A DNA stretch of 33,192 nt from Planctomycetota bacterium (GTDB lineage Bacteria; Planctomycetota; Phycisphaerae; Sedimentisphaerales; Anaerohalosphaeraceae), in NCBI GenBank assembly GCA_030637065.1, contig DAOVVQ010000003.1, positions 1 through 33,192 of the forward strand. The letters run 5' to 3'. The translations under genes were made by a program, and so were the position numbers. Under the pieces are notes generated by a model. That model had not been told where the DNA came from. It worked only from the letters and a program-made list of their open reading frames with translations, and did not search any database. Below, in pieces: positions 1,195 to 33,192 of this stretch (position 1 is its first letter; the number at the start of each line of letters is the position of its first letter).

Positions 1195-1242
1195 AATTAA
1201 AGAAGCAAAGAATTAAAGAAGTAGAGAATTAAAGAATCTCTG
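1195..1242 (+). repeat. Degenerate octamer array, copy A (6 units)
   Basis: aattaaag aagcaaag aattaaag aagtagag aattaaag aatctctg; same unit grammar as arrays at 28185-28248 (-) and 32886-32933 (+). Confidence 0.85.
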
Positions 1243-1278
1243 TGTTGTTTGTGGGTTCTGCGGCCCAGGAAACTCTGG

Positions 1279-1298
1279 ATTCCCGCCTTCGCGGGAAT
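1279..1298. repeat. dRS3-like inverted repeat ATTCCCGCCTTCGCGGGAAT
   Basis: ATTCCCN8GGGAAT inverted repeat; the overlapping minus ORF reads VIPAKAGIQ, a peptide commonly produced by this repeat class. Confidence 0.8.
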
Positions 1299-1798
1299 GA
1301 CATTTTGGGTGTTGGATGGAAATGTGGGGTGATTTCTGTCAGAAGGTTGGGGTTTTTGCAAAATGCGAGAGCAGATTGCGATTGGTTTGGTTTGTACCGG
1401 CTTTGAAGGGGTTTGGGGGGTGTTTTTGTTTTGGCATGGGGTTTGCAATTGTTGTTTATGGCAAGACGTGTGTGGCTTTGGTGGAGGCTGAGTCATGGAG
1501 GATAGAGGCTGGTGCGGAGCAGGATGAGTAGGGAGGATTAAGGTGGTGTGGGGGAGGATGATTTTTGAAGATGGGCCCGGCGGCGGCGAGATGGGATGGC
1601 CGGTGGCGGGCATAGATGAGGGATGGATCATGACGGGAGATGTGTGCATTGTGTTTGGAACGTGCGTTACTTCGATTCGGATGAGACTTCGATCCCTTGA
1701 TACGACCAGGCCGTGAAGGCGGCGTATGCTTTTGTACACGGTTTTTGCGTGCAGCATAAATAGGCCGAAGCAATTTGGAAGCTTAATCGAAAGGGTCA

Positions 1799-2485
1799 AT
1801 GATGATTATGCCTATTGTATTGCGGCAGAAGCGTGTGGTTATCGATGTTGATACGCAGCGGGATTTTTTCGAGGACGCCAGCGACGTTTGCATCAGGAGC
1901 CGGCGGAGGATCCTTGCGAATATCAAGCGGGTGGTCGGCTGGGCCGGGCGAAAGCGGATCCGGATGATCTCGACGGTTCAGGAGTATTGCGGCGATGACT
2001 GTGGTCATGGTTTTTGTGTTGCGGGGACGAGGGGGCAGGAGAAGCTGGGCTGTACGCTGCTTAAGAAACGTGCGACGTTTACGGCGACGGACAGTACGGA
2101 CCTGCCGCGGCGGATATTCGACGAATGCGACCAGGTCGTTGTTTGCAAGCGATGCTTCGACCCGTTTCTTGAGCCGCGTGCGGATCGGATCCTGACGGAG
2201 CTAAAGGCGAGCGAGTTTATTGTTATCGGGGCTGGGACGGAGAATTCGGTTAAGGCTACGGCGCTGGGTCTGCTGGTGCGCCATAAGAAGGTGACGGTCG
2301 TCGTCGATGCCACGGGCGGGCACGACAGGATCGCGGTAAAGGACAGTCTGCGGCACCTGTGGGCGAAGGGGGCGAAGTTGTGCGATACCGGTTCACTGGT
2401 CAACGGGCCGTGTCAGCGGCTGCTGAATGCGTGCTATTACGATCCGTATGAGATTGCGGATCCGTCGGATATCTGGATTGGCTGA
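1799..2485 (+). CDS. Isochorismatase-fold (cysteine hydrolase family) protein with Ser at the usual Cys position
   Basis: VVIDVDTQRDFF N-terminal motif, VVCKRCFDPF, and FIVIGAGTENSVKATALGLLVRHKKVTVVVDA aligned to the family motif G.xT.xCV.xTA. Confidence 0.85.
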   Translation: MMIMPIVLRQKRVVIDVDTQRDFFEDASDVCIRSRRRILANIKRVVGWAGRKRIRMISTVQEYCGDDCGHGFCVAGTRGQEKLGCTLLKKRATFTATDSTDLPRRIFDECDQVVVCKRCFDPFLEPRADRILTELKASEFIVIGAGTENSVKATALGLLVRHKKVTVVVDATGGHDRIAVKDSLRHLWAKGAKLCDTGSLVNGPCQRLLNACYYDPYEIADPSDIWIG

Positions 2486-22020: not shown

Positions 22021-22102
22021 GAAAATCAAAGATTAGAAATTAAAATGTAAAACGACAAATTAAATTTCAAAAATGTGTTGCCAGCCCACACCGGGCTTGA
22101 CA
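22021..22102 (+). repeat. A-rich dispersed repeat with terminal hairpin, copy 1
   Basis: aaaatcaaagattagaaattaaaatgtaaaacgacaaattaaatttcaaaaatgtgttgccagcccacaccgggcttgacag; near-identical to 28026-28106. Confidence 0.85.
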
Positions 22103-22144
22103 GCAACCATCCACCTCGGCGGTGCCTCGGTGGCTGCCACCCGT
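22102..22144 (+). repeat. GC-rich dispersed repeat, copy 1
   Basis: agcaaccatccacctcggcggtgcctcggtggctgccacccgt; copies at 23349, 28137 and (reverse) 33009. Confidence 0.92.
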
Positions 22145-23255: not shown

Positions 23256-23348
23256 TGGCAAAAATGCAAAAAGAATCATAGCCACTCGCCGCGGCGAGCG
23301 CGTAAAGCTACGGCGGAACAGGTTTTCACAGATTTACATCAAAATGAT

Positions 23349-23391
23349 AGCAACCATCCACCTCGGCGATGCCTCGGAGGCTGCCACCCGT
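23349..23391 (+). repeat. GC-rich dispersed repeat, copy 2 (two substitutions)
   Basis: agcaaccatccacctcggcgatgcctcggaggctgccacccgt. Confidence 0.9.
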
Positions 23392-23422
23392 CGATTGGGT
23401 AGTTGATTGCAGGGCTAAAGCC

Positions 23423-23653: not shown

Positions 23654-26600
23654 ATGCATAGGTTTGTCCTGTTATCGATCATTGCATTAGCGTCTGTCTG
23701 CAATGCGGACGTTATTTTTGTCGATGCCAGTGCTGGTGGTGCAGGTGACGGCAGTAGTTGGGCCGATGCGTACGTCGAGTTTCAGGATGCACTGGACGAC
23801 CCCAATATCGCATATGGGTGGGAGATATGGGTTGCGGCTGGGACGTATAAGCCCGACCCTAATGGCCTTGCCGACCCGCGCGAGGCAACTTTCCAAATGG
23901 TAAACGGCGTGGGTATCTACGGCGGATTCCCGACAGGCGGCAACATGTTCGCAAACCGCGACCCAAATCAATATGAAACGATTCTATCAGGCGACCTGTC
24001 AGGCAATGACAATCCGGCCACACCCGTTGAAGACCTGCGCTATGACCCCAACCGCATAGACAACTGCTACCATGTTTTTTATCATCCAGACAGCTTGGCT
24101 CTCGAACCTAACGCTATTCTTGACGGCTTTACAGTAACCGGTGGCCATGCTGCCACAGGTTACGACGAGCACAGCTATGGCGGCGGGATGTATAACAGTT
24201 ACAGCAGCCCAACAGTTAGCAATTGCACATTCACCGCCAACTATAGCTCACACGGCGGTGGGATGCATAACCTGGACTCCAGTAGTCCGACAGTGAGCAA
24301 TTGCATCTTCACCACCAACGGTAGCCGGGACGGCGGTGGTATGTATAACAAGAATTACAGCAGCCCAACAGTTACCGGCTGCACATTCACTGGCAACTTT
24401 GGCTGGGGTGGCGGCGGGATGCTTAACTATTACCTCAGCAGTCCGACAGTGAGCGAGTGCATATTCGCAGGAAACTCCACTGAAGCATATGGCGGCGGGA
24501 TGTATAACAGGGAATCCAGCAGTCCAACAGTGATTGGGTGCATCTTCACCGGCAACTCCGCCGCGGTCGGGGGCGGGATGGAAAACTACAAATCCAGCAG
24601 CCCAACAGTGATTAGCTGCATCTTCACCGGCAACTCCGCTGACTCGAGCGGCGGCGGGATGGATAATGGGGACTCCAGCAATCCGAAAGTGATTAGCTGC
24701 ACTTTCACCGGCAACTCGGCTGGCATGTCCGGCGGCGGGATGTCTAACACCCAGTGTAGCTCGACAGTGAGCAATTGCACTTTCACTGGCAACTCGGCTG
24801 GCGAGAAGGGCGGCGGGATGCGTAACTATGAAAGCAACCCAACAGTGACCGGCTGCACCTTCAGCGGCAACTCAGCTGGCTACGGCGGCGGGATGAATAA
24901 CAACATCAACGTACGCATTAGCCCGATAGTGACAGGCTGTACTTTCACCGGTAACCGAGCTAACGATGGCGGGGGCATGTATAACTTTGGAAACAGCGAC
25001 CCGACAGTGATTAACTGCATACTCTGGGGCAATACCGCATCTTCCAATGGCAATGAGATTTATAATTCTAGTTACTACGCTACCTCTACAATCAGTTACA
25101 GCGATATTGCCGGTAGTCTTTTGGGCGGAACCTGGGATGCTTCCCTGGGAACTGACGGTGGCGGTAATATCGATACAGATCCCTTATTTGTTGATGCAGA
25201 TGGTTTGGATGGCATTGCCGGAACCGAGGATGATAATTTGAGGCTTTTAGCGGGCTCTCCTTGTATTGATGTTGGTGATAACACGGCGGTTCCTGCTGAT
25301 ACGGCTGATCTTGACGACGATGGTGATACTGCTGAGGCGGCACCGTTTGACCTTGATGGCAATGCCCGCATCATGAATGGTACTGTGGATATGGGAGCGT
25401 ATGAAAATCATCCTATCCACCTATTAAATCCTGATGGAATTGAAGTGATGATGGCCGGTACTGTATACGATATTACATGGCAAGCAGTCGACAATATTGA
25501 AAATGTATCGCTTGAATACTCCGATGCCGATGGTCTCGCCTGGGCTGTGATCGACCCCAACACGCCTAACGATGGTGAATATAACTGGACTGTGCCTGAC
25601 GTGACATCCGAGAAGTGCCTTGTTCGTGTCAGTGATGCGATCGATCCTAATGTCTTTGATGTCAGTGATGATGTGTTTACCATCTATGTTTGTCAGTTTG
25701 ATTCGCCCGCTGATCTGAATAATGACTGCAAAGCGGATATGCCCGACCTTGGCATTATGAGTGTCGGCTGGTCTGGTGTATATGACTTCAATGACTTGAC
25801 CATCCTTGCTGATGACTGGCTGCGTAACGGCAATCCGTTCGACTCGGACTTCACCGAGGTCTATGAGGGCATGGTCTTTATCCCCAGCGGTGAGTTTCTG
25901 ATGGGCGACCATTTCAGTGAAGGCTATATTGAAGAACTACCTGTCCACGCTGTTTACCTTGACTCCTTCTATATGAGCCGTTACGAGGTAACTAATCGGC
26001 AGTATTGCGATTATCTAAATTCGGCATATCCTGCTCAGATAAAAGTTGTAAGCGGCAGAGTCTATGCCTCGACAGACACGGGCAACCTTTACCCCTATTG
26101 TGATACATCAACCACATCTACATACAGCCAGATTGACTTCAGCGCCCCCGATTTCAGTGTAAGAACTAAGCCGGAAATAGGTGGCCGCGACATGTCGAAT
26201 GACCCAATGGTTGAGGTAAGCTGGTACGGAGCGGTTGCATATTGTGATTATTATGGCTACCGCTTGCCAACCGAAGCGGGGTGGGAATACGCCGCCCGCG
26301 GCGGTGAGCACAGCCCGTACTACAGACACCCTTGGGGTGACAGCATAGATGGCTCTAAGGCCAACTACTGGTCTTCCGGTGATCCATATGAAACAGGAGG
26401 TCGGCCGTTCACAACGCCGGTGGGGTATTATGATGGAAGTCAAATACCAGCAGGTTCCGATATGGCTAACGGCTACGGCCTGTATGATATGACAGGCAAT
26501 GTCTGGGAGTGGTGTAGCGACTGGTACGATGGAAATTATTATAATGTAAGCCCCTACGATAACCCACAAGGGCCTGCAAGTGGTCTGGGTCGTGTTATCC

Positions 26601-28025: not shown

Positions 28026-28106
28026 AAAATCAAAGATTAAGAATCAAAATGTAAAACGACAAATCAAATTTCAAAATGTGTTGTCAGCCCGCACCGGGCT
28101 TGACAG
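28026..28106 (+). repeat. A-rich dispersed repeat with terminal hairpin, copy 2
   Basis: aaaatcaaagattaagaatcaaaatgtaaaacgacaaatcaaatttcaaaatgtgttgtcagcccgcaccgggcttgacag. Confidence 0.85.
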
Positions 28107-28136: not shown

Positions 28137-28179
28137 AGCAACCATCCACCTCGGCGGTGCCTCGGTGGCTGCCACCCGT
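28137..28179 (+). repeat. GC-rich dispersed repeat, copy 3
   Basis: agcaaccatccacctcggcggtgcctcggtggctgccacccgt, identical to copy 1. Confidence 0.92.
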
Positions 28180-28184
28180 CGGGA

Positions 28185-28248
28185 CAGAGATTCTCTAATT
28201 CTTTGCTTCTTTAATTCTCTGCTTCTCTGCTTCTCTAATTCTCTAATT
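28185..28248 (-). repeat. Octamer array, copy B (8 units)
   Basis: Minus strand: aattagag aattagag aagcagag aagcagag aattaaag aagcaaag aattagag aatctctg, then tcccg. Confidence 0.92.
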
Positions 28249-31200
28249 CTTTTCTCCGTACCAGCATTCGATGCTTCCGTCCTCGCTGGAGATGTACAGC
28301 CTGCCGTAGGCGGCGGACATCCCGTCCCATGCGGGCAGCTTTTCCAGCTTATACTCGGCCAGTTTGGATCCATCCGCGGCTGAGGCGGCCCATAGCACTC
28401 CGCCGTATCGGCCTTCGTAGGTGGCCTCGTAATTGCCGGGTTTGAAGATCAGCGGCGCTCCGGCAATGAAGATCGTATCGCCGGCCAGCGTCATTGCCTT
28501 GCCGGTCAACTGAATATTGCTCTTCCATTTGCTCGACCATTTGTCCGCTGACCTGGTCTTGGCCAACAGTCCGTAGCCGTCCCTTCGCGGGTCGAAATAG
28601 GATGCGCCGCGGTTTACCTGCAGGCCATATACCGAATAGTAGTCCGTCCCGTCGGAGACCAGAATATCGCCGGTAGGATAATCCGTATCCGCAGTGGTCC
28701 ACGTTTTGCGGTGGTTAAACTGCTCCTGAAAGATACTGTATTCGCGATGATTGCGATTCGATTCGAGCATCCCAGCCGAGGACAGCAGATGCTTTCCGGG
28801 CACCGCGTCGGTCAGGTCCATGTTGAAGGCCAGTTGCCGGACATAGAGAGTGTCCCCTTCACAGCTCATGACATCGGCGGTGGTCCCCTTAATAACTTCC
28901 GTATCCGACCGGTCGCCCTTCTCGACGAACGCCGGGAAGCCGTCGGGGCCGTGGGGGCCGTAGAACTGCCGCTCGTGAATGATCTCGCCGGTGACGGGAT
29001 CGAGGCCATAGACGAAAAGGCCGCTGTCGAGATAGGTTGAACGACCGGCGCAAAAGTAGGCGGTGTCGTTCTTGACCAGTATGCTGCCGTGAACGGGCCA
29101 TGCCGACTCGACCTGGTCGTAAACGCAGATCATTTTGTCCGGCAGGTCCCGGAAACGCCATGAAAGCATCCCATCGGAAGCACGCACACAGTACACCCAG
29201 CCGTCGCGGCTGCCAAATAGCAGCAGCCCTTTGTAGTAGGTCGGCGGCGAATCGATCCGCCCTCCGGCAACATATCGCCAAAGCTCTTTTCCGCTGGTAC
29301 CGTCCAGGGCGTAAAGGGTATGGGCATCGGTTTCGGCGACGAACACCTTGCCTTCGGCGATCACAGGCGCGCTGGCGGCGTTCTCGAAGCGGGCTTTCCA
29401 CAACCGCTTGAGCCCGGTGGCTGGCACGCTCTTTGCCGCTGACGAATAGCGGCGACCATCCTGGCGATAGGTCGGCCACGGAGCGTCCGAAGTCCTGCCG
29501 GAGTAGCCGTAGGCCGTGCTCTTCTCAAGGCGGACCGAACGTTTAACGTCCGCGGCCTTGCCCTGGGTAGGTAATACGTCCTCGTCGGTGTAGTAGACAT
29601 TGAAGTTGTGCAGGGCGACGGGCAGGTGGCACTGGCAGGAGTACGGCCCAAGATACATCAGCCCGTTGCAGGGCAGAACGCCCATGCTGCACGTCGCTCG
29701 CGTGAAGGGATTGGGATACTCGGTGTCGCTTGCCAGGTCCAGGCAGTCCGGCCCACCGGTCTTGCTGTTGATAAAAAAGCGTTCGGTGATAAAATTGCGG
29801 AAACAGCGATCGTGCCCCATCGGCTTGGAGAGCCTCTGGGCGATCGTCTTGATCTCGTCGCCCGTTTTCAAGTCGTAGCTGGTGGGCGTGCCGCTGGCAC
29901 CGCACATCCACAAGGCGCCTGCGGCTATCATTATATCGGTCTCAGCCTGGTAACCCTTGCGAGCCTTGATGGCCTTGCCCCAATAATCGCTGCCATCGGC
30001 CAACGAATAGGCATACAGGTCCTTACCTTCCTCGGAATAAACCGCATCATCGCTAAGCACGAGGGTATTAGGCATACTGCCGGTTCCGTGAGCGATCTTT
30101 TTTTCAACCGCCCAGTTCTTTCTACCCGTCCGCGCATTTAAGCAGAACACCCCGCCAGCGCTCTGATAAACCAGCTTGTCGCCCTTGAGCGCCATCGTAC
30201 AGCCGACATAATCGGCGATCTCTCCGGTCCGCCAGGCCTCTTTGCCCGTCTCGGCGTCGATAGCGACGATGATGCAGGTGGGATTCTCGGCGTTGCGCGT
30301 TCGCGGATTATAAGCCGACGACGGGAAGCCGTATCCATTGAAAAGCGTATCGGGAGCTGCTTTAACTTCAGCTTCAGCCTGGGCCTTCTTCTTGCCTTTC
30401 TTTTTCGGCTCAGCTTCCGAATCTTTGCCGTAGGCGTTAAAGAACATGCGGTCGCCGATAACAAGATAGAGCAGTCCATCGTGCCAGACGAATTCCTGAG
30501 TGCCCTGAGTCCCTTTATATTGCCTGACGGTTTTTCCGGTCGCCGCATCCAGAGCCGTTACCGGCGCCTTTAGCCCCGGCGTGCAGTACACCGTATCGCC
30601 AATGGCCACCAGCCGCCGCTTCATCTGGGCGTGGAACTGCTTGATATGGACCGTGATCTGCTCCCAGTCGGGGTAGTCCAGCGTCCAAAGCACCACACCG
30701 TTAAAGGCGTTGCGGGCGAACAGCTTCCATTTAGCAGGCAGGAACTGGTTCTCGGCTGTAGTAGTGTCCTCGATAGTGAACAGACGTCCGCGAGAAGAAA
30801 CCATCCCAGCCATCGTCGCCGCTCCCATGTGCGAACGGGTCCAGGCCGGGCCGGAGATCCACTGGACATGACGAGGCGGCCCGACCACCGTATCCTGCGC
30901 AACGCAGTTATTATCCGCCCCGTGCAGATATTGCGGCCACTCGTCCATTTCCTTCGGATACGGTTTGGTTATCTTCCTGCCGCTGACAATTGCAGTGCCG
31001 TACGGCGCAAGTACCCTTAGCATCTCAGGATCCGAAACACGGCACCCGGAACCGGCAACCACCAGGTTCACCAGATTGTCGATATACGGCAGGTGTCGCC
31101 CGTCAAAAACGGCTGCTGAGACCTTGCCGTAACACCCGGCGGTGCGGATCTTTTTGCGAAGGCGGGAAACCTCAGCCTTGGAGGTTTCCAGACATTGGAA

Positions 31201-31356
31201 AATGCAGCCGGGTTTTTCCCAATCATCTGAAACGCTTTCGAGCGCCTTAGCGCCGATGCAGACAACCAAACCGCCTTCGACATTAACGGCCCCTGCGTTT
31301 GCAACCGCACACCACATAACCAATATGCCCGTAAAAAGGGCGATCTTTGCCTTCAT
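28243..31356 (-). CDS. Exported protein: degenerate SAM-methyltransferase-like domain fused to PQQ-like beta-propeller
   Basis: Signal peptide; VVCIGAKAL...VSAAVFDGRHLPYIDNLVNLVVAGSG (Rossmann methyltransferase-like); many propeller blades (NGVVLWTLDYPDWEQ, ALDAATGKTVRQYKG, AIDAETGKEAWRTGE, ALDGTSGKELWRYVAGGRIDSPP). Confidence 0.9.
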   Translation of the reverse strand: MKAKIALFTGILVMWCAVANAGAVNVEGGLVVCIGAKALESVSDDWEKPGCIFQCLETSKAEVSRLRKKIRTAGCYGKVSAAVFDGRHLPYIDNLVNLVVAGSGCRVSDPEMLRVLAPYGTAIVSGRKITKPYPKEMDEWPQYLHGADNNCVAQDTVVGPPRHVQWISGPAWTRSHMGAATMAGMVSSRGRLFTIEDTTTAENQFLPAKWKLFARNAFNGVVLWTLDYPDWEQITVHIKQFHAQMKRRLVAIGDTVYCTPGLKAPVTALDAATGKTVRQYKGTQGTQEFVWHDGLLYLVIGDRMFFNAYGKDSEAEPKKKGKKKAQAEAEVKAAPDTLFNGYGFPSSAYNPRTRNAENPTCIIVAIDAETGKEAWRTGEIADYVGCTMALKGDKLVYQSAGGVFCLNARTGRKNWAVEKKIAHGTGSMPNTLVLSDDAVYSEEGKDLYAYSLADGSDYWGKAIKARKGYQAETDIMIAAGALWMCGASGTPTSYDLKTGDEIKTIAQRLSKPMGHDRCFRNFITERFFINSKTGGPDCLDLASDTEYPNPFTRATCSMGVLPCNGLMYLGPYSCQCHLPVALHNFNVYYTDEDVLPTQGKAADVKRSVRLEKSTAYGYSGRTSDAPWPTYRQDGRRYSSAAKSVPATGLKRLWKARFENAASAPVIAEGKVFVAETDAHTLYALDGTSGKELWRYVAGGRIDSPPTYYKGLLLFGSRDGWVYCVRASDGMLSWRFRDLPDKMICVYDQVESAWPVHGSILVKNDTAYFCAGRSTYLDSGLFVYGLDPVTGEIIHERQFYGPHGPDGFPAFVEKGDRSDTEVIKGTTADVMSCEGDTLYVRQLAFNMDLTDAVPGKHLLSSAGMLESNRNHREYSIFQEQFNHRKTWTTADTDYPTGDILVSDGTDYYSVYGLQVNRGASYFDPRRDGYGLLAKTRSADKWSSKWKSNIQLTGKAMTLAGDTIFIAGAPLIFKPGNYEATYEGRYGGVLWAASAADGSKLAEYKLEKLPAWDGMSAAYGRLYISSEDGSIECWYGEKN

Positions 31357-31816: not shown

Positions 31817-32884
31817 TTGGGTTTACTTCAAGAGATTACGGAGTTGTCACATGAGTTTGGAACGGTCGAATATGTACGCGGCGGCGGCGGTAACACCTCC
31901 GTCAAGGACGCTGAGACGCTCTGGGTAAAGCCCTCCGGCACCACGCTCTGCGGCCTGTCAGAAGGCGCCTTTGTCGCCATTGACCGCAAAAAGATCGGCG
32001 GCCTCTACGACGTCCAGTCGCCCAAGGACCCTTCCGAGCGAGAAGCCCTGGTCAAAGATGTAATGATGGGCTCGCGGCTGGAAGGGGCAGAGGGCCGGCC
32101 CAGCGTCGAGGCGCCTCTCCACAACTCGCTCAGCGCCAAATTCGTCGTCCACACCCATCCCGCGATAGTAAACGGCATGACCTGCGCCACAGACGGCAAG
32201 GCAGCCTGTCAGCGGCTCTTTCCCGATGCACTCTGGTTGGACTATATCGACCCCGGATACACCCTTTGCATGGTCGTTCGCAACGAGATCGAAAAGTTCA
32301 AGGCCGAAAAAGGCGTCGAGCCGGCGATGATCTTTTTGAAGAGCCACGGTGTCTTTGTGGCTGCGGACGATGCCGAGGGCATCCGGGCCAGTTATCACAC
32401 CATCATGAATACGCTGCGCGACGAGTACCGCAAGGCCAATATTTCAATGGAACTAACGGTAGGCCCCGACCCAGACGCAGCCGTCGCCGCTGAGGCGAAG
32501 GGATCCGTAACCAGCGCTCTTGACGGCATCGCCGAGGTCGACCTGAGCCTAAGCGGCGATTTCGAGGTCTACAAGGGCCCGATCTCGCCGGACCACATAG
32601 TCTACGCCTATTCGTTCCCGTTCGTCGCCACCCCCTCACCCGAGGCCATAAAGCAGTTCCAGCAGACCAACGGCTACTGGCCAAGGATCATCTCATTTAA
32701 CGGTCTCGTCTTCGGAGCAGGCGAAACCCGGCGAAAAGCCGACCTCGCCCTCGAAATGTCGCAGGATGGTGCATTAGTAACCCAGCTCGCCGAAGCGTTC
32801 GGAGGAATATGCTACCTGACAGACCGGGCCCGCAACTTCATAGAAAACTGGGAAGTAGAGGCCTACAGAAAAACCCAAATATAA
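31817..32884 (+). CDS. Class II aldolase/adducin-family protein (rhamnulose-1-phosphate aldolase/dehydrogenase N-terminal-like)
   Basis: GGGGNTSVKDAETLWVKPSGTTL, VEAPLHNSLSAKFVVHTHPAIVNGM, IFLKSHGVFVAADDAEGI motifs; TTG start preceded by AAAGGACGG. Confidence 0.88.
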   Translation: MGLLQEITELSHEFGTVEYVRGGGGNTSVKDAETLWVKPSGTTLCGLSEGAFVAIDRKKIGGLYDVQSPKDPSEREALVKDVMMGSRLEGAEGRPSVEAPLHNSLSAKFVVHTHPAIVNGMTCATDGKAACQRLFPDALWLDYIDPGYTLCMVVRNEIEKFKAEKGVEPAMIFLKSHGVFVAADDAEGIRASYHTIMNTLRDEYRKANISMELTVGPDPDAAVAAEAKGSVTSALDGIAEVDLSLSGDFEVYKGPISPDHIVYAYSFPFVATPSPEAIKQFQQTNGYWPRIISFNGLVFGAGETRRKADLALEMSQDGALVTQLAEAFGGICYLTDRARNFIENWEVEAYRKTQI

Positions 32885-32885
32885 C

Positions 32886-32933
32886 TAAGAAAGAATTATA
32901 GAAGAATAGAATTAAAGAATTAGAGAATCTCTG
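32886..32933 (+). repeat. Octamer array, copy C (6 units, first degenerate)
   Basis: taagaaag aattatag aagaatag aattaaag aattagag aatctctg, then tgtcccg. Confidence 0.85.
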
Positions 32934-32936
32934 TGT

Positions 32937-32961
32937 CCCGTTCGACAGGCTCAGGGCAGGC
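32937..32961 (-). repeat. Short dispersed motif cccgttcgacaggctcagggcaggc
   Basis: Overlapping minus ORF reads ACPEPVE, a recurrent spurious peptide of this repeat class. Confidence 0.75.
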
Positions 32962-33008
32962 TCTCTGTGGGCTCTGCCCGGCTGCGACTCGCTCCGCCGC
33001 GGCGAGCG

Positions 33009-33050
33009 ACGGGTGGCAGCCACCGAGGCACCGCCGAGGTGGATGGTTGC
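33009..33050 (-). repeat. GC-rich dispersed repeat, copy 4
   Basis: acgggtggcagccaccgaggcaccgccgaggtggatggttgc, reverse complement of copies 1 and 3. Confidence 0.92.
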
Positions 33051-33100
33051 ACACCTGACTAATACCAATTCCACTAAAAAAATGCGCGTCAGTCCGTAGG

Positions 33101-33120
33101 ATGGGTAACTTGTTACCCAT
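33101..33120. repeat. Near-perfect palindrome atgggtaac-tt-gttacccat
   Basis: 9-bp arms with 2-nt centre. Confidence 0.85.
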
Positions 33121-33192
33121 GCGGTTCTGTATGCTCCTCCGTCGGAATGGATAGCAAACGTACCCAGCGTACATAATTTATTAGTGCTGCTC

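Follow-up and report, generated by a model that had tools for sequence, protein, structure and literature searches.

Copy C, a probable mosaic of small dispersed repeat words behind a planctomycete aldolase gene

Layout of copy C

The window analysed in this study is the whole of contig C350, 33,192 nucleotides long, from a planctomycete draft assembly of 3.56 Mb in 356 contigs that is 80% complete. The contig ends 142 nt past copy C, a repeat locus that lies directly downstream of a class II aldolase-like gene (sugar aldolase; 31817-32884, plus strand) that matches rhamnulose-phosphate aldolase/dehydrogenase models weakly. The aldolase is at best 57-58% identical to that of the closest relatives having the gene, and a comparison of the orthologous site in the aldolase neighbourhoods of 40 relatives revealed neither the element 3' of the gene nor a useful empty locus in any of them. 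About 45 nt past C, at 33096-33127, there is another dispersed palindromic word, CCGTAGGATGGGTAACTTGTTACCCATGCGGTTC, whose core has 15 matches in the 307 kb examined and a variant of which was found 3' of the aldolase in one relative (G036, L073). Local analyses covered about 300 kb of stretches and loci picked for holding repeats, while copy numbers were taken from whole-genome searches.

Read along the plus strand, copy C begins with a degenerate octamer array (32887-32928; unit AGAANNAN, for example AGAATTAA, AGAATTAG or AGAAGCAG), which was delimited with TRF and a genome pattern search. Joined to the array end is CTCTGTGTC (32929-32937), the left piece of what we call the CTCTGTG ('CACAGAG') phrase. 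This is followed by a 25-nt word, CCGTTCGACAGGCTCAGGGCAGGCT (32938-32962), placed between GTGTC and CTCTGTGG and delimited by three same-site copies and five matching empty sites, and then by CTCTGTGGGCTCTG (32963-32976), the remaining 14 nt of the interrupted phrase, which is found uninterrupted at locus L152. After a single C comes a 30-nt unit, CCGGCTGCGACTCGCTCCGCCGCGGCGAGC, with a CGCCGCGGCGAG palindrome (32978-33007), which elsewhere is found at YTTC^GC, and finally a 44-nt module of the CACC subtype, GACGGGTGGCAGCCACCGAGGCACCGCCGAGGTGGATGGTTGC (33008-33050), whose first C (33007) is also the last base of the 30-nt unit; all of these words are on the plus strand.

It had been proposed from the sequence alone that C is a second copy, B, with one 68-bp module inserted at 32941-33008. 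On re-reading, the strings, coordinates and orientation behind this proposal were correct: copy B reads, on the minus strand, array-AATCTCTG-TCCCG-ACGGGTGGCAGCC, and C reads array-AATCTCTGTG-TCCCG-TTCGACAGG...GGCGAGCG-ACGGGTGGCAGCC, with the array starting 3-8 nt past the aldolase stop codon (32882-32884) on the coding strand, like B. The module itself did not survive as a unit. A BLAST-type search with a 116-nt query across C gave 51 genome matches, and in these the 68 bp fall into pieces that are each repeated on their own, namely the TTCGACAGG word (query positions 30-61) and a unit around CGGCTGCGAC...GCGGCGAGC (65/68-104). The stretch thus comprises most of the 25-nt word, 14 nt of a third word and the 30-nt unit. 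Its left edge (TCCCG|TTCG) falls 3 nt inside the 25-nt word, a boundary present in no copy, and its right edge (GAGCG|ACGGG) is the junction of two independent repeats and is seen at C only; a genome-wide comparison of copies found no further copy with both boundaries, an outcome that had been named beforehand as one that would refute the proposal. In addition, a locus on another contig, C342:7289-7364, matches positions 7-82 of the query at 92% over 76 nt, the array end included, and has the array end, TCCCG, the 25-nt word and the start of the 30-nt unit in the arrangement of C, without the 44-nt module. A description of C as B plus an insert is not supported by this locus.

Copies, taxonomic range and empty sites of the words

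The octamer-array pattern has 54 overlapping matches genome-wide, or about 22 arrays once merged, compared with 0 for the reversed control, and no such array was found in the family's 38 other genomes. Besides that of C, the window holds array A (1195-1243, plus strand), which ends in CTCTGTG, and the array of copy B (28190-28252, minus strand), which overlaps the stop codon of a PQQ-like repeat protein gene (28243-31356, minus strand). In all 11 gene-array adjacencies of 30 bp or less, scored on ORF calls by length rather than on curated genes, the purine strand follows the gene direction; in seven of these the array is at the 3' end of the gene, and in the other four it lies just 5' of the next gene. 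This agreement may reflect transcribed operon spacers.

The CTCTGTG phrase, CTCTGTGTCCTCTGTGGC, is order-wide, being found in 80 of the 159 genomes of the order, and in this genome an array end is joined to it 14 times at up to 3 mismatches. At L152 (G000:C14) the full phrase CTCTGTGTCCTCTGTGGGCTCTGTGGC is present without the 25-nt word or the 30-nt unit. The 25-nt word interrupts the phrase at CTCTGTGTC^CTCTGTGG, a site of which five intact versions exist, and as CCGTTCGRCAGGCTCAGGGCAGGCT, at C as well as at two loci on C342, it has CTGTGTC before it and either CTCTGTGG or CTCTACGG after it. The genome contains the phrase in three coexisting stages: intact (L152), with the 25-nt word (C342:7161-7201) and with both words (C342:7289-7364 and C).

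A much wider range was found for the TTCGACAGG word, whose exact 24-mer, TTCGACAGGCTCAGGGCAGGCTCT, was matched in at least 120 stretches from many phyla, the hosts among the matches listed being Chloroflexi, Acidobacteria, Planctomycetota, Fibrobacter, Proteobacteria, WOR-3 and others. Of 86 copies in other organisms, about 80 have CCC directly before the word, so that TCCCG is to be regarded as part of the word and not as its flank. In 14 of 99 de-duplicated foreign copies of the 24-mer the flanks form a stem scoring at least 7 net pairs; when flanks were exchanged in 200 rounds, a mean of 3 and a maximum of 9 copies had such a stem. A minority of the foreign copies thus sits in hairpin loops. 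Words resembling TTCGRCAGGCTCAGGGCAGGCT occur 11 times in the genome, and searching the literature for TTCGACAGG and TTCGACAAG found no paper. At loci L046-L050 a full imperfect palindrome, CCCGTTCGACAAGCTCAGGGCAAGCTCTGAGCGAAGCCGAACGGG, is present, one arm of which, together with the loop, resembles the TTCGACAGG word of C. As the ranges of the individual words extend from this genome only, through the order, to many phyla, private and widespread words are interleaved within about 165 nt at C.

The 30-nt unit is present in 26 copies in this genome and in none of 396 other genomes of the class, and neither it nor the 44-nt word was found in viral contigs. Its copies are intergenic and show no orientation preference. 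In order to search for empty sites, the 30 nt CCGGCTGCGAC[TG]CGCTCCGCCGCGGCGAGC were removed and the joined flanks were searched for elsewhere. Empty sites were obtained for 11 of the 15 copies examined, in three host words and at YTTC^GC every time, compared with 5 of 3000 random 30-nt removals and 0 of 570 removals adjoining the units. Most copies of the CGGCTGCGAC unit sit within the hairpin CTGGATTCCCGCCTTC^GCGGGAATGAC; within the sequence examined locally, the GGATTCCCGCCTTC^GCGGGAATGAC hairpin was found uninterrupted at 13 and interrupted at 8 distinct sites, and it folds with an 8-bp stem and a 4-nt CTTC loop that contains the insertion point. One uninterrupted hairpin of this kind, CTGGATTCCCGCCTTCGCGGGAATGACA, which elsewhere has the 30-nt unit in its loop, lies in the window at 1274-1301 (plus strand). 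The palindrome in C had been likened to one at 23285-23298, and this resemblance is explained by an incomplete 30-nt unit, CTCGCCGCGGCGAGCG (23285-23300, plus strand), followed by CGTAAAGCTACGGCGG, a host word present also at L170. For the 30-nt copy of C itself no empty site was found: its left flank is GGGCTCTGC and its right flank GACGGG, which is not the canonical YTTC^GC. This counts against the account of copy C given below, and the copy may have arrived by recombination.

Whole-genome searches found 17 copies of the 44-nt module at up to 3 mismatches and 22 with a looser pattern, a number far beyond chance since the reversed pattern gave 0. The module was found in none of 160 other genomes of the order and not in genome_contigs, and the whole element was not found in plasmids. 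The copy in B (28138-28181, minus strand) is 100% identical to that of C. Two further copies in the window, both on the minus strand, are one of the CATC subtype at 23350-23393 and one of the CACC subtype at 22103-22144, which has no array and shares a right-hand flank block with B. This block, AAAATCAAAGATTA...CCGGGCTTGACAG, adjoins the module at 22022-22106 and at 28026-28106 and has about 30 extra bases in one of the two. The CACC subtype is restricted to B, C, the copy at 22103 and one other (C317:2117), and as only two further copies share it, some common ancestry of B and C is likely. Most copies stand singly or as direct partial repeats (L140) rather than in inverted doublets, and the joined-flank search that served for the 30-nt unit gave no convincing empty site. 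The modules are intergenic with no preference for gene 3' ends, the left and the right gene each being on the plus strand in 11 cases and on the minus strand in 10. The proposal that the repeats are attached to gene 3' ends consequently fails for the 44-nt module and the 30-nt unit, and holds in part for the octamer arrays through their agreement with gene direction.

Origin of copy C

Copy C is probably not one element carrying a 68-bp module but a chimera, a nested mosaic in which at least five intergenic repeat words, each dispersed independently, have come together. Word boundaries, empty sites, copy numbers and taxonomic ranges are the direct observations behind this account. The modular and nested character first read from the sequence is real, and it is better supported than the sequence-only reading could show: the empty-site test bears out the nesting, with module boundaries that differ from those drawn originally. 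In the proposed course of events, a CTCTGTG phrase beside an octamer array would have been interrupted by the 25-nt word, and the interrupted phrase would then have been joined to the 30-nt palindromic unit, itself abutting a 44-nt module. The 25-nt and 30-nt words may act as very small insertable elements that enter other repeats at fixed contexts, GTGTC^CTCTG and YTTC^GC (in one host a hairpin loop), apparently without target duplication beyond a 1-nt ambiguity, and their flanks may have been swapped later by recombination or template switching among the many copies. We infer that the filled sites arose by insertion rather than by precise loss. Hairpins of single-stranded DNA would probably have been the form that was copied, whether through the action in trans of an HUH-type enzyme or through template switching during replication, which would require no enzyme of its own, and the repeat DNA probably has no strong host function. 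It might even be speculated that the 30-nt unit, like the pan-phylum TTCGACAGG word, represents a minimal loop-targeting mobile DNA, in which 25-30 nt of folded single-stranded DNA are inserted in trans into the loops of hairpin repeats at the fixed site YTTC^GC, giving nested hairpins with host-specific stems. This idea is supported by the 14 of 99 foreign TTCGACAGG copies found in stems of at least 7 pairs where 3 are expected, and we regard it as rather doubtful.

A history in which B is ancestral and C gained a single 68-bp module between TCCCG and ACGGG would be consistent with the array, TCCCG and identical CACC-subtype 44-nt module common to B and C, which may indeed share ancestry. However, the 68 bp are made up of parts of three words, two of which are repeated elsewhere and have insertion sites of their own, the left boundary runs through a word, and no second locus with the block was found. 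As C342 has the order of C without the 44-nt module, the same order would have to have been remade by chance, and we therefore consider a derivation of C from B by one insertion very improbable and largely refuted. B is more simply explained by the deletion of 68 bp between two CG dinucleotides in an ancestor resembling C, or by a separate joining of array and 44-nt module. According to the mosaic account, B most likely lost material that C keeps, as the 2-nt CG microhomology at the ends might suggest, or the 44-nt module joined the array separately. One further 44-nt copy, at L028, starts with CCGACGGG and likewise has CCG before ACGGG, so that the TCCCG of B does not have to derive from the 25-nt word, and the polarity is not proven. 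An assembly chimera or binning artefact is very improbable too. The assembly is a single, fragmented draft of 356 contigs at 80% completeness, and repeats lie close to several contig ends (C237, C208, C190 and the end of the window), but every word is found in many contigs, with unique flanks that differ from one to the next, and most junctions of C are seen again at other loci.

The position of C directly 3' of the aldolase gene and the agreement of the arrays with the direction of nearby genes in 11 of 11 cases would fit a functional 3'-end element, that is, a terminator, an RNA-stability hairpin or a gene-end regulator. However, the region contains no site resembling an intrinsic terminator (a GC hairpin followed by a T run), its RNA fold is not exceptional (z = -1.5), no Rfam family matches at this locus, and the lack of orientation preference of the 44-nt and 30-nt units and the absence of the element 3' of the aldolase in relatives make such a role quite improbable. 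Somewhat more credit, though still little, is due to the idea that these are REP/REPIN elements moved by the RAYT (TnpA-REP) protein of this genome, as the repeats are palindromic, intergenic and present in high copy number, insertion into hairpin loops is observed, and genes for IS200-like and RAYT-like Y1 proteins are present. Against this, none of the modules adjoins any of the four Y1 genes, the RAYT-like gene L066 is surrounded by three copies of a different motif, TTAAATGTACCTGGTACC, neither a GTAG nor a CGTC tag is present, and the 30-nt and 44-nt units fold no better than shuffles.

Candidate movers and likeness to known repeat systems

A mobilising enzyme had been suggested as something to look for, and the four Y1-transposase matches in the genome (L065-L068) showed no link to the modules, none of the words lying beside any of them. 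L065 is an IS200-type gene, and L066 is RAYT-like at 70 bits, below the 80-bit NCBIfam cut-off. L066 (G000:C140:2608-4633; 1198-1875, minus strand) lies among the three TTAAATGTACCTGGTACC copies and is a candidate for a REP system of its own. Elements of the IS200/IS605 type insert on the 3' side of a short, invariant sequence and do not duplicate the target. This target choice resembles the insertion of the words described here, a resemblance only, as neither a transposase nor end hairpins were found at these words.

Small dispersed repeats (SDRs) of about 20-27 nt were reportedly described by Elhai et al. in 2008 in cyanobacteria such as Nostoc. They are intergenic and lie within other repeats for which clean empty sites exist, and no mover is known for them. 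The 30-nt unit and the 25-nt word show the same features, being 20-30 nt long and dispersed, with empty sites inside other repeats. They differ from SDRs in phylum and sequence and in that words of very different taxonomic range meet in one locus. Cyanobacterial SDRs are mentioned in two studies (PMC2884548, PMC3116915).

The words share with REPINs and their RAYT proteins (PMC3116915, PMC8266576) that they are tiny, non-autonomous, palindromic and multi-copy in intergenic DNA, and that single-strand chemistry is likely. Unlike REPINs, they are not inverted REP doublets and do not flank a RAYT gene, the RAYT-like gene of this genome carrying another motif. REPs have a terminal GTAG or CGTC tag next to the palindrome (PMC3733652), and no such tag is conserved in the 44-nt alignment or the 30-nt unit. 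As in BIMEs, which are built of REP/PU units, we find an intergenic mosaic of short palindromic repeats in variable order; whereas in BIMEs one REP type alternates in orientation (PMC3733652, PMC2817692), the words found here are unrelated and nested and lack the tag. The octamer arrays can be compared with the TAACTGA heptamer arrays of marine Beggiatoaceae, which lie mostly just 5' of start codons (PMC4679880). Both are degenerate intergenic arrays of a short unit that follow gene direction, and some in each case overlap the end of the upstream gene. The arrays described here differ in their 8-bp AGAANNAN unit and in often following stop codons.

Repeat clutter of this kind is known from bacteria, and copy C is an example of unusual clarity. 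The clean separation of the words, together with their empty sites, target contexts and taxonomic ranges, makes the spread of 25-30 nt sequences within and between genomes testable. It also calls for caution, as 'modules' at gene 3' ends that are inferred from one locus may be accidental joins. Short intergenic words such as TTCGACAGGCTCAGGGCAGG, for which a literature search found no paper, and CTCTGTGTCCTCTGTGG are scattered through uncultured bacteria. Repeats of a different nature are present elsewhere in the window, where a 1037-aa gene contains, at 24170-24920 in its coding sequence, tandem repeats with a unit of about 78-81 bp (GGCGGCGGGATG...).
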